From the NCBI RefSeq assembly GCF_003634695.1, contig NZ_RBWV01000009.1, positions 496,001-560,000 of the forward strand: a stretch of DNA of 64,000 nt, given 5' to 3'. This stretch comes from Motilibacter peucedani. GTDB lineage: Bacteria > Actinomycetota > Actinomycetes > Motilibacterales > Motilibacteraceae. The number at the start of each line of letters is the position of its first letter. Positions within the stretch are counted from its first letter, which is position 1. Made by a program: the position numbers and the translations under genes. The notes below the pieces were generated by a model that was not told where the DNA came from, searched no databases, and was given only the letters and a program-made list of their open reading frames with translations. Below, one piece after another: positions 15,400 to 19,463 of the stretch.

Positions 15400-16734
15400 T
15401 CAGACCGCGGCGGCGACCGCAGCCGCCCGCCCCTCGACCGGGTGCGGCGTGCGGCGGGTCACCACCGCGTACGCCGCTGCTGCCGCTGCGTAGGCGAGGG
15501 CCATCAGCCACGACAGCGCCGTGCTGTGCCCGCCGGTGGGGACGAGTACGGCCGCCGCGACAGCGGCCGACACGAAGGTGACGTTGAAGACGGTGTCGTA
15601 GAGGGAGAACACCCGGCCTCGGAAGGCGTCCTCGACCGACTGCTGGACGACCGTGTCGACGCAGATCTTCACTCCCTGTGCCGAGATGCCGAGCACGAGC
15701 GCGGTGGCGACGACCGTCGGGTGCGCGACCGGGAGCAGCGAGGCGGCGGCCTGCGCCACGGCGGCGAGGGCGAGCAGCAGCGCCACCCACGTGCTCTTGC
15801 GGATGCGGGTGGTCACCTCGGGCGTCAGCACCGCGGCGAGGAAGTAGCCCACTCCACTGGCGGCGACCACCTGGGCGAGCCCCGCGAGCGCGGCGTCGGT
15901 GTCGCTCGGGTCGTGCAGCGTGTTGCGGTAGAGCAGCAGGGTCGCGACCGTCCACAGGCCGTAGACGAAGCGGTGCGCGGCGATCGCGCTCAGCGCGCGG
16001 AAGGCCGGCCGCGTGGCCGCGACGTGCGCGGCGCCGTCGGCCATCCCTCGCGCCACGACGCGCAGCGCGTGCCCGAGCGGCGCGGGCACGTTGACCTCGT
16101 CGGGACCCAGCTCGTCGCGCGGGATCCGGGAGGCGACCGCCGCCGCGGCGCAGGACAGGACCGCTGCCCCGACCAGCACGCCGGCCTGCGCCCCGTCGCC
16201 GCCGCCGAGCAGGGTCCGCAGCCCGAACGCGAGCCCCGCACCGATGAGCGAGCTGGCGGTGCCGGAGGTCGTCGAGACGCTGTTGGCCATGACCAGCTCG
16301 CGGGGCGGCACGACGTGCGGCAGTGCGGCCGACAGGGCCGAGAGGTAGAACCGGTTGACCGACAGGATGACCAGGCCGGTGGCGTAGAGCCCGACGCCGG
16401 CGTAGTCGGCCGCGACGCACGCGCCGAGCACCAGCACGAGGGCGGCCTTGAGCAGGCTGGCCCGGGCGAGGATGCGCTGGCGGCGCCAGCGGTCGAGCAG
16501 CACCCCGGCGAACGGCCCGACCAGGCTGTAGGGCAGCAGGGTGGCCGCGAAGGCGAGGGCCGCGTCGGTGGCGGTGGCCTGGCGCTCGGGGGAGAAGAAG
16601 ACGAACGAGGTCAGCGCGACGGTCGTCATGCCGTCGGCCGACTGGGCGGTCAGCCGGGTCGCGAACAGCCGGCGGAACCGCCTGCTGCGCAGCACGTCGG
16701 CGAGGTCACCCAGGAAGGACCCCGGACTCGGCAT
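15400..16734 (-). CDS. Major facilitator superfamily transporter
   Basis: 444-residue MFS protein with about 12 helices; the loop between helices 2 and 3 carries GPFAGVLLDRWRRQRIL, the MFS motif A in the form seen in enterobactin-exporter-like permeases. Probably a drug or metabolite exporter; substrate unknown. The frame begins with GTG 16737, but ATG 16734 sits 6 nt behind a TAGTCT hexamer (16741-16746, minus strand), which fits a leaderless start. It lies next to ino1 only through the hairpin region 16757-16817. Confidence 0.8.
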   Translation of the reverse strand: MPSPGSFLGDLADVLRSRRFRRLFATRLTAQSADGMTTVALTSFVFFSPERQATATDAALAFAATLLPYSLVGPFAGVLLDRWRRQRILARASLLKAALVLVLGACVAADYAGVGLYATGLVILSVNRFYLSALSAALPHVVPPRELVMANSVSTTSGTASSLIGAGLAFGLRTLLGGGDGAQAGVLVGAAVLSCAAAAVASRIPRDELGPDEVNVPAPLGHALRVVARGMADGAAHVAATRPAFRALSAIAAHRFVYGLWTVATLLLYRNTLHDPSDTDAALAGLAQVVAASGVGYFLAAVLTPEVTTRIRKSTWVALLLALAAVAQAAASLLPVAHPTVVATALVLGISAQGVKICVDTVVQQSVEDAFRGRVFSLYDTVFNVTFVSAAVAAAVLVPTGGHSTALSWLMALAYAAAAAAYAVVTRRTPHPVEGRAAAVAAAV

Positions 16735-16756
16735 CACGCCAGACTAACCGGCTGCT

Positions 16757-16824: not shown

Positions 16825-17904
16825 CTAGCGCTCGACGTCGCCGCGGATGAAGGCCTCGACGTTCTGCTTCGCGAGGTCGTCCGCGTACTGCACGGGCGGG
16901 GACTTCATGAAGTAGGACGCCGCCGAGAGGATCGGGCCGCCGATGCCGCGGTCCTTGGCGATCTTGGCAGCGCGGACCGCGTCGATGATGATGCCGGCCG
17001 AGTTCGGGCTGTCCCAGACCTCGAGCTTGTACTCGAGGTTCAGCGGGACGTCGCCGAACGCGCGGCCCTCGAGGCGGACGTAGGCCCACTTGCGGTCGTC
17101 GAGCCACTGGACGTAGTCCGACGGGCCGATGTGCACGTTGCGGGCACCGAGCTCGTGCTGCAGGTTGCTCGTGACGGCCTGGGTCTTGGAGATCTTCTTC
17201 GACTCGAGGCGGTCGCGCTCGAGCATGTTCTTGAAGTCCATGTTGCCGCCGACGTTGAGCTGGTACGTGCGGTCGAGCTGCACGCCCCGGTCCTCGAACA
17301 GCTTGGCCAGCACGCGGTGCGTGATGGTCGCGCCGACCTGGCTCTTGATGTCGTCGCCGACGATCGGGACGCCGGCCTCGGTGAACTTGGCCGCCCACTC
17401 GGGGTCGGAGGCGATGAAGACCGGCAGGGCGTTGACGAAGGCGACCTTCGCGTCGATGGCGCACTGCGCGTAGAACTTGTCGGCCACCTCGGAGCCCACC
17501 GGGAGGTAGGACACGAGGACGTCGACGCGCTGGTCCTTGAGCACCTGCACGATGTCGACGGGGGCGTCGTCGGACTCGGTGATGGTCTCGCGGTAGTACT
17601 TGCCGAGCCCGTCGTGGGTGTGGCCGCGCTGCACGATGACGCCGGTGGGCGGCACGTCGGCGAACTTGATCGTGTTGTTCTCCGACGATGCGATCGCGTC
17701 GGAGAGGTCCTGGCCGACCTTCTTGGCGTCCACGTCGAACGCGGCGACGAACTCGATGTCGCTGACGTGGTAGGGCCCGAACTGGACGTGCATCAGGCCG
17801 GGGACGCGGCTGGAGGCGTCGGCGTCCTTGTAGTACTCGACGCCCTGGATGAGGGAGGAGGCGCAGTTGCCCACTCCGACGATTGCTACGCGAACGGAAC
17901 CCAT
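16825..17904 (-). CDS. ino1: Inositol-3-phosphate synthase
   Basis: Converts glucose 6-phosphate to inositol 3-phosphate, the first step to phosphatidylinositol, mycothiol and related lipids. 359 residues, typical for the bacterial form. The NAD-binding motif [13 protein letters not shown] is at the N-terminus; the conserved [20 protein letters not shown] and [12 protein letters not shown] are present. ATG 17904 is preferred over the in-frame GTG 17922 because GAGGAG lies 10 nt upstream; the padR stop overlaps that ribosome-binding site, so translation of the two is coupled. Regulation by the PadR-type protein encoded just upstream is expected. Confidence 0.95.
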
Positions 17905-17918
17905 CCGGAAAGCACTCC

Positions 17919-18557
17919 TCACGGTTGTTGCGTGCCGGACGGGCCGGCCACGTCGTTGTCGTTGTCATGGGCGGCACGCGGAGCCCGGGGGGCACTGCTG
18001 CCGATGGCGCGCTCGTCGTCGATGAGCTCGCCGAGCCAGCGGACCTCGCGCTCGACCGAGTCGAGCCCGTGGTTCTGCAGCGCGAGGGTGTAGGTGTCGA
18101 GGCGCTCGCGCGTGCGGACGAGGGACGTGCGGAACTTCTCCCGCCGCTCCTCGAGCCGTGACCGACGGCCCTCGAGCACCCGCAGCCGCGTCGCCGCGTC
18201 CGCGTGGCTGAAGAACGCGAGGTGGACGCCGAAGCGCTCGTCCTCCCACGCGTCCGGTCCCGCGTCGGCGAGGAGGTGCTGGAACTCCTCCTTGCCCTCA
18301 GCGGTGATCTTGTAGACGATCCGGGCGCGCTTGCCGGCCGTGGCCGGGGCGGCGTCCGGGTCGTCCGGGCTCTCCTGGGCGATCCAGCCGGCCTCGAGCA
18401 TGGTGCGCAGGGCCGGGTAGAGCGAGCCGTAGGAGAAGGCCCGGAAGGTGCCGAGCAGCAGGTTGATCCGCTTGCGCAGCTCGTAGCCGTGCATCGGACC
18501 CTCGTGGAGCAGGCCGAGGACCGCGAGCTCGAGCACGCCGGTGCGCTTGGCTGCCAC
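17919..18557 (-). CDS. PadR family transcriptional regulator
   Basis: 212-residue repressor. The N-terminal winged helix of PadR type is clear: [21 protein letters not shown], then [18 protein letters not shown] coiled-coil dimerisation helix (about 115-165) follows, with a charged, low-complexity tail. GTG start at 18557 behind GAGAGGGGG. It is immediately upstream of ino1 and behind a 13-bp operator array, so it very likely controls its own operon, hence inositol phosphate production. The effector is unknown. Confidence 0.9.
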
Positions 18558-18628
18558 CGGCCACCCCCTCTCGGTCCGCGACCAGCCCGCTGCCGGTCAG
18601 TGGTTCCGCCGAGCCGAGCACCGCTCTC

Positions 18629-18693
18629 CGATACATCGGTGCGATGTAGCCGACCGATGTAGTGATGCGATGTATCGACTCGATACATCGACG
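18629..18693. promoter_or_regulatory. Five-unit 13-bp CGAT repeat array (PadR operator)
   Basis: Five perfect 13-bp units start at 18629, 18642, 18655, 18668 and 18681; each begins CGAT followed by ACA or GTA. Units 1 and 5 read CGATACATCG, units 2-4 CGATGTA. Together they give a 7-bp palindrome (TACATCG/CGATGTA, 18632-18648) and a 10-bp palindrome (CGATGTATCG/CGATACATCG, 18668-18690). A sixth CGATAC at 18695 is out of phase by one base. Located 72-136 bp before padR; half-sites ACATCG/CGATGT fit PadR-type operators. Confidence 0.7.
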
Positions 18694-18815
18694 ACGATAC
18701 GGCGCAGTCCGGCGCTCTGCAAACGCGACACGCCGACATCACCCCGCCGGACGCGTACGCGGTGGGCTCGGAGTGCTGCGGCGACCCGGGCCGCCACGCC
18801 CCGCCCCGCCCCGCT

Positions 18816-18869
18816 GATTGGCACGATGTGACTTCTTGCCAATCGGATGGGCAAGAAGTCACATCGTGC
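18816..18869. repeat. 20-bp perfect inverted repeat between padR and the DUF5318 gene
   Basis: GCACGATGTGACTTCTTGCC (18821-18840) is exactly complementary to 18850-18869 with a 9-bp spacer. A shorter alternative hairpin, GATTGGCA (18816-18823) with TGCCAATC (18837-18844), would exclude the larger one. The region between the two divergent genes (18558-18959) otherwise holds only the 13-bp array and the promoter of the DUF5318 gene. The role is unknown; an operator or a transcription barrier is possible. Confidence 0.75.
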
Positions 18870-18946
18870 GGGCCCACGGCAGCGCTCGAGAGCCGGGCGC
18901 ACTCGGACGCGGAACTGCGCACCTCGTCGCATCCCGGGCACGCCCG

Positions 18947-18952
18947 TACGCT
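18947..18952 (+). promoter_or_regulatory. -10 element of leaderless DUF5318-ponA transcript
   Basis: TACGCT, 7 nt before GTG 18960. No Shine-Dalgarno sequence is present upstream of that start. This fits transcription beginning at the start codon. Confidence 0.45.
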
Positions 18953-18959
18953 GGACGGC

Positions 18960-19463
18960 GTGCAGGCGCGCACCCGCGACGTGGTCGACTACGCGCTCCA
19001 GCGCAGGGCCGCGCTGGCTGCGCTGGCCACCGGGCGCGCCTCGCGCGAGGAGGTCTGCGACGCCCAGCCCTACCTCCGCAGGGCTGCCGTGCACCTGGGC
19101 GAGCTGACCGACCGGCTCTGCCCGGTGTGCCGGCGCGAGCAGCTGCTGCAGCTGGTCTACGTCTACGGTGACGAGCTGGGGCAGTTCTCCGGGCGCATCC
19201 GCAAGGCGGCCGACCTGCCGGAGATCGCGGCCACGAGCGGCGACGTGAAGGTCTACGTCGTCGAGGTGTGCGCCGGCCCGCCGGTGGTGCCCGGGGTGCC
19301 CCGCATCGACCGCGGGCTCGACGGTCGCCGCGACTTCCGGCGGCCCGCACGCACGCGGCAACGAGGCTGCGGATGGAACGCACTGGTCCTGTCGTACGTC
19401 GTGGGCGACGGGGTCCCGAGACGCCCACCGCGGCGCCGACCGACGATCGAGGACGAGCTTTGA
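18960..19463 (+). CDS. DUF5318 family protein
   Basis: 167 residues, conserved in actinomycetes directly upstream of the class A PBP gene. A Cys pair, LCPVCRREQL (about residue 45), and a later GCGWNAL sequence near residue 140 may form a metal site; YVYGDELG is another conserved stretch. The function is not established, but the invariant link to ponA suggests a role in envelope growth. GTG 18960 is chosen because it follows TACGCT by 7 nt. The gene stop overlaps the TTG start of the PBP gene. Confidence 0.8.
   Translation: MQARTRDVVDYALQRRAALAALATGRASREEVCDAQPYLRRAAVHLGELTDRLCPVCRREQLLQLVYVYGDELGQFSGRIRKAADLPEIAATSGDVKVYVVEVCAGPPVVPGVPRIDRGLDGRRDFRRPARTRQRGCGWNALVLSYVVGDGVPRRPPRRRPTIEDEL

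Follow-up and report, generated by a model that had tools for sequence, protein, structure and literature searches.

The window, the whole 64-kb stretch of DNA that we analysed, carries ahead of its padR and ino1 genes an array of 13-bp units that is probably the autoregulatory operator of this gene pair. PadR would nucleate on a palindromic core formed by two of the units, and the extra half-sites would recruit more subunits. An earlier note on this DNA had proposed that the region is the operator of padR-ino1, and sequence comparison makes this very probable, with the core kept in 167 of 179 readable loci. Arrays were also sought upstream of padR-ino1 in relatives. They are present there, extra 13-bp units recurring in 58 of 146 loci, so the doubt raised in the same note, that no close relative might carry an array, falls away. 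Its picture of a five-fold operator was right in that five units are present. Nevertheless, the putative class-wide operator is one palindrome (units 4 and 5), to which loci may or may not add further half-sites, usually a single one; "five-fold" was therefore an overstatement.

The array, its genes and its promoter

The regulator gene padR (17919..18557, minus strand) has a GTG start at 18557. Its product carries the PadR winged-helix domain PF03551 (58.2 bits against a gathering score of 27) and is the orthologue of M. tuberculosis Rv0047c (PDB 8jxk). Rv0047c is also its nearest solved relative (E 1.8e-54), followed by B. subtilis PadR on operator DNA. Foldseek likewise matched the regulator to Rv0047c and to PadR structures, using an AlphaFold model (moderate confidence, pLDDT 76.9) that served for fold matching only. 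The following gene, ino1 (16825..17922, minus strand), encodes inositol-3-phosphate synthase (TIGR03450, mycothiol_INO1; 712.6 bits, cut-off 638), and an in-frame ATG at about 17904 is in our view its likelier start. The window therefore has a gene for an Rv0047c-type PadR immediately ahead of a co-oriented ino1. The best 80 of 583 relatives all show this order and orientation of padR and ino1, and in 22 of them a divergent DUF5318 gene could be seen ahead of padR. An MFS transporter gene (15400-16737) comes 87 bp after ino1 in the same orientation and possibly belongs to the operon.

The mycobacterial orthologue has received some attention. Passages of PMC3899939 term Rv0047c uncharacterised and a suspected regulator of ino1, and part of PMC7174638 describes zinc addition lowering M. 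smegmatis padR and ino1 together. An excerpt of PMC5571309 describes isolates as viable despite a stop codon in Rv0047c, and an inositol supplement as causing no shift in the activity of the compound studied; it does not touch on the operator.

The array lies in the promoter and 5′ leader of padR and ino1, between padR and the divergent DUF5318 gene. Read directly from the sequence, positions 18629-18693 hold five units in exact 13-bp register, each beginning CGAT(A/G)(C/T)A. On the plus strand these are unit 1 (CGATACATCGGTG, 18629..18641), unit 2 (CGATGTAGCCGAC, 18642..18654), unit 3 (CGATGTAGTGATG, 18655..18667), unit 4 (CGATGTATCGACT, 18668..18680) and unit 5 (CGATACATCGACG, 18681..18693). 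Units 4 and 5, the putative core half-sites, are the important pair of the array, one to which the earlier note gave no special attention, forming together a near-perfect 21-bp palindrome (18669..18689, GATGTATCGAGTCGATACATC on the minus strand) that would lie over the transcription start. Unit 3 is the first extra half-site and the one most often present elsewhere, unit 2 is the second and has the same direction, and unit 1 is the third, with the opposite direction and both arms. Both CGAT and ATCG arms are found in units 1, 4 and 5, and only one in units 2 and 3. The earlier note had given the palindrome-forming shape to units 1 and 5 and the other shape to units 2 to 4, which is correct except for unit 4, which is also full (CGATGTATCG). 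It had also extended the array to 18700. The units end at 18693, and the CGATAC at 18695-18700 follows at 14 bp rather than 13 and shares bases with the -10 box TATCGT in reverse complement.

The five units, their register and their shared start are thus borne out, and they are hard to obtain by chance. When the 402-bp intergenic stretch was shuffled 300 times with its dinucleotides preserved, no five-unit run appeared; the count took in every series of five 7-letter units, at periods of 9-20, with at most two mismatches per unit. The motif CGATRYATCG occurs at four places in the 4.19-Mb genome, three of them inside the array, and the 21-bp palindrome is present as a single copy at up to three mismatches. 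By periodicity alone the array is not outstanding: there are 51 runs in the 64-kb window, mostly GC-rich, and several have as few or fewer mismatches. Its Tandem Repeats Finder score is only 33, for which reason a simple tandem-repeat reading was rejected. The convincing evidence for the array is the conservation of its sequence across relatives. Meanwhile, the label "iteron-like" given in the earlier note is a misnomer. No replication context was seen, and the iteron reading was rejected on the adjoining genes tested (padR, ino1, the DUF5318 gene and the MFS gene) and the 740-kb contig.

On the coding (minus) strand the order of elements is a -35 box TTGCAG (18717..18722), 17 bp, a -10 box TATCGT (18694..18699), the palindrome of units 5 and 4, then units 3, 2 and 1, and the gene. 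In a logo of 146 non-redundant loci the -10 and the TTG of the -35 stand at fixed distances from the core, the latter with T 0.68, T 0.52 and G 0.55 at -32 to -30. TATCGT is the majority sequence at -9 to -4 of the core, and in the window it is one base farther away. Transcription generally begins about 7 nt past a -10 box. The start would then fall inside the palindrome, near 18687, and the array would take in this position together with some 60 bases at the beginning of the leader. A generic consensus scan found no sigma-70-type site, and generic promoter and terminator scans found nothing, so the promoter is called from the comparative logo. Unit-like matches upstream of the core were found in 70 of the 146 loci at the -10 region and in 15 one step farther up, placing the -10 itself within a unit-like frame.

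A second palindrome, near-perfect and with 24-bp arms and a 1-nt loop, lies at 18821-18869, in the stretch that separates the putative operator from the divergent DUF5318 gene. We read 19 dispersed copies of it in the window genome and none in the four other genomes of the family, based on 36 strand matches to ATGTGACTTCTTGCC with at most one mismatch. Some copies (L224, L239) change both arms together. It looks like a species-specific dispersed palindromic element of the REP/MITE type.

Conservation of the core and of the extra units

We collected 180 padR upstream regions, comprising four from the window's family, the best 80 of 583 relatives and 96 from further genomes of the class; being the best matches, the 80 lean toward close relatives. 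One region without upstream sequence was dropped (L126), leaving 179 readable loci. The 167 loci mentioned above match the core at 15 or more of 19 positions, a level reached by none of 895 dinucleotide shuffles of the same regions. At 13 or more of 19, 178 of the 179 loci pass (the exception, L125, has a best core of 10/19), as do 29 of the 895 shuffles. This bar is lenient, and we therefore quote the figure for 15/19. The loci scoring 13 (seven) or 14 (four) are accordingly doubtful, and were kept among the 178 that were reduced to 146 non-redundant loci at 80% identity. Across these 146 loci the inner core letters TATC...GATA are almost invariant. The core contains ATGT-N11-ACAT at the promoter, the inverted repeat of PadR-type operators, with a spacer of 11 bp where the canonical one is 8 (to 10) bp.

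In family f18 (L243-L262) and in L182 the right half of the core is changed, from ACATC to ATGTC or ATGTT. In L260 and L182 the downstream units are changed along with it (CGACATGT), hinting at a concerted change of core and array. The 20 f18 regions had been picked for their core match, and were used only in reading by eye and in the autocorrelation described below.

The core follows padR rather than ino1. A padR gene (E ≤1e-30) was found in 250 of 296 genomes of the class, and a core with at most two mismatches, anywhere in the genome, in 214. These comprise 211 of the 250 padR-positive genomes and three of the 46 padR-negative ones (Fisher 2.9e-25, uncorrected for kinship), while a reversed control pattern matched in five of the 296. 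The 39 padR-positive genomes without a core at this stringency belong largely to families f4, f17 and f26, whose cores are more diverged. Among padR-negative genomes, one (G006) has an AT-rich core-like match with two mismatches that is not on its ino1 contigs, and another (G097) has a core-like site with one mismatch. A third (G027) has an exact core at base 208 of contig C277, and its padR may have been lost in an assembly gap. Some other padR negatives may be assembly gaps as well; the ino1 of G003 is cut by a contig end.

Meanwhile, ino1 is present in 17 of the 46 padR-negative genomes, in two of them only as contig-end fragments. The 18 ino1 loci of these genomes have no good core nearby, their best matches (11-13/19) being at the level of shuffles. 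The presence of the core with padR and its absence near padR-less ino1 indicate that the site belongs with padR. Fourteen genomes (L206-L219) have ino1 with neither padR nor a nearby core, eight of them in one genus (f17 g36). The single copy in the window genome is what would be expected of an autoregulator with a single target. This is not general, given the 39 genomes lacking the core and another 13 of the 296 with at least two matches, in one of which (G033) the second is another register within its array.

The extra units follow the core at a fixed step. When loci are aligned on the core, ACATC (at least 4/5) recurs at +13 in 34/141, at +26 in 16/130 and at +39 in 8/105, against 0-4% at other offsets from 5 to 70, and no enrichment is left at +52 (2/79). 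Using a 10-letter template in either orientation (at least 7/10), we found a unit adjoining the core at 13 bp in 58 of the 146 loci, and in 0-5 at spacings of 10-12 and 14-18 bp. Two or more units in a row at 13 bp occur in 18 loci and three or more in nine, with none at each other spacing from 10 to 18. Because we composed this template with the loci already in view, two further results matter more. In loci chosen by a strong first unit, a second was in register in 12 of 32, whereas shifts of 1-6 gave 0 or 1. Across 166 loci, an autocorrelation that needs no template likewise has its maximum at 13: z is 4.7, or 4.2 when the core is left out, and falls to 1.9 beyond the third unit.

The number of extra units varies widely. 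Exactly one in a row is present in 40 of the 58 loci, making promoters with three half-sites the commonest extended form. No unit of at least 7/10 adjoins the core in 88 of the 146 (five of these being too short to tell), which indicates that extra units are dispensable. An array of six units is present in G033 (L112). The window's family has five genomes, four with padR: the window genome (G000) has five units, G004 has four, G002 has five, degenerate ones among them, and hand scoring of the sister species G001 gave only the core and one weak unit. The number of units is thus labile. By eye, several f18 genomes show steps of 14 or 15 bp beside those of 13, and drifted right arms. A core kept in nearly all relatives that we examined, accompanied by a variable number of extra sites, looks like a real and evolvable control switch.

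A stricter pattern, three exact in-register copies of ACATCG, gave 13 matches in five of 393 genomes. Two are at padR-ino1 (G000, G033) and 11 elsewhere (G067, G059 and nine in a single minisatellite of G087), and the pattern is therefore no good marker of the system. This minisatellite (L190, G087:C11:360337-360472) consists of about 11 copies of the 13-bp ACATCGGCCCGTG on another contig than padR, and its sharing of the operator's period and half-site letters is perhaps a coincidence.

A model of control and its alternatives

Based on the comparison, which argues for autorepression by PadR, we infer the following course of binding, repression and recruitment. A PadR dimer would recognise the palindrome GATGTATCG-N3-CGATACATC directly after the -10, and its position over the putative start site would block initiation of padR and ino1. 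The downstream units, at steps of 13 bp, would act as extra half-sites, with recruitment of additional PadR subunits proceeding from the core. The complex, extended into the leader, may make repression tighter or its response steeper. Binding may also be cooperative and control of inositol phosphate synthesis graded, as the earlier note suggested. Lineages would gain and lose extra units, and an inducer would release PadR. One point counts against this mechanism: direct half-sites repeated every 13 bp are not an obvious fit for a dimer with two-fold symmetry. Furthermore, with three half-sites as the commonest extended form, tiling of dimers on pairs of units would not be the whole story.

We tentatively extend this to a modular operator, in which a fixed palindrome nucleates PadR and an ordered oligomer spreads along lineage-variable 13-bp modules, their number setting the strength or steepness of control. 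If so, evolution would tune inositol control by adding or dropping modules. Our literature search found no description of palindrome-seeded spreading for PadR proteins, nor any of this operator or of PadR half-site arrays in the literature it covered, most subscription journals lying outside it.

On another reading, the core and a third half-site would be occupied by two PadR dimers sitting on separate faces of the helix, in the manner of LmrR on the lmrCD operator. The excerpt of PMC5428041 has LmrR placing two dimers on an operator with a 10-bp spacer and one on an operator with 8 bp, which makes two dimers plausible on a core whose spacer, at 11 bp, exceeds the canonical 8. The 40 of 58 extended loci with exactly one extra unit, through which odd totals are common, point the same way. 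Many loci, however, have no clear third unit, and we regard this arrangement as possible, on the lower side of even. It would refine the explanation favoured above rather than oppose it, three half-sites being the basic unit and longer arrays its extensions.

The core might alternatively function by itself, the extra units being neutrally decaying remnants of tandem duplication of a core half by slippage. The 88 loci without a clear first extra unit, the fading of the unit signal with distance and the tidy tandem copies in L248 and L112 are in line with this. In contrast, the third unit is still visible as a weak logo across the 146 loci (C0.61 G0.70 A0.51. A0.64. A0.61), and half-site letters are kept in the extra units while the 3-bp spacers differ, varying from unit to unit in the window. 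These features make slippage remnants unlikely.

Another DNA-binding protein could also occupy the site, with padR merely its target. The putative PadR site here is drawn from sequence comparison and, in the passages of PMC3899939 on inositol control, the LacI-type IpsA is described as controlling ino1 in Corynebacteria, and Rv0047c itself as containing a site. Nonetheless, the core tracks the presence of padR and its sole copy in the window genome is as expected of a one-target self-regulator, so that we consider a different protein quite improbable. Least probable by far is an element acting as RNA, which was rejected: up to nine base pairs could form at the 5′ end of a transcript starting in the core, and at the outermost pair (0/20) G:U (16/146) exceeds non-pairing (12/146), yet a DNA palindrome yields the same covariation, non-pairing cells outnumber G:U over the nine pairs (91 against 38, summed by hand) and A:C exceeds G:U at the most variable pair (3/17; 27/146 against 10/146), so that RNA pairing is not clearly preserved, while no Rfam match lies within 18400-19100 and direct-repeat units add nothing to a hairpin.

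Significance and relation to known systems

Inositol phosphate feeds phosphatidylinositol lipids and mycothiol, as described in part of PMC3899939. A widespread regulator adjoining ino1, present in 250 of the 296 genomes sampled, now gains a concrete candidate operator, and a single main PadR target is predicted in the window genome. The relatives also offer a natural series of promoters, from two to six units, for gauging how half-site number affects repression.

A close counterpart is Rv0047c-ino1 (Rv0046c) of M. tuberculosis, where an orthologous regulator lies upstream of ino1, as here. The literature search returned no description of an operator for this pair, and no paper for the structure entry 8jxk. 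BldC of Streptomyces resembles the proposed system in the cooperative binding of multimers to variable numbers of direct repeats. According to the excerpt of PMC5859096, BldC belongs to another, MerR-like family and binds head-to-tail on 9-bp sites without a palindromic core, whereas here we found a PadR gene, 13-bp units and a palindromic core. Similarly, C. difficile cdPadR1 gives several shifted bands on its own promoter, attributed to two inverted repeats or to oligomerisation (part of PMC5050560). It differs in being of the PadR-s2 type, with an AT-rich spacer of possibly variable length, and the same part of that source mentions no 13-bp register.

B. subtilis PadR and L. lactis LmrR share with the system described here the PadR fold and a promoter with an ATGT...ACAT inverted repeat. 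LmrR is moreover an autorepressor, two dimers of which can occupy a single operator (PMC5428041, in the portion on its operators). Compared with both, the putative operator of padR-ino1 stands apart in its spacer of 11 bp instead of 8-10, in its extra half-sites at 13-bp steps and in its target, an inositol phosphate synthase.
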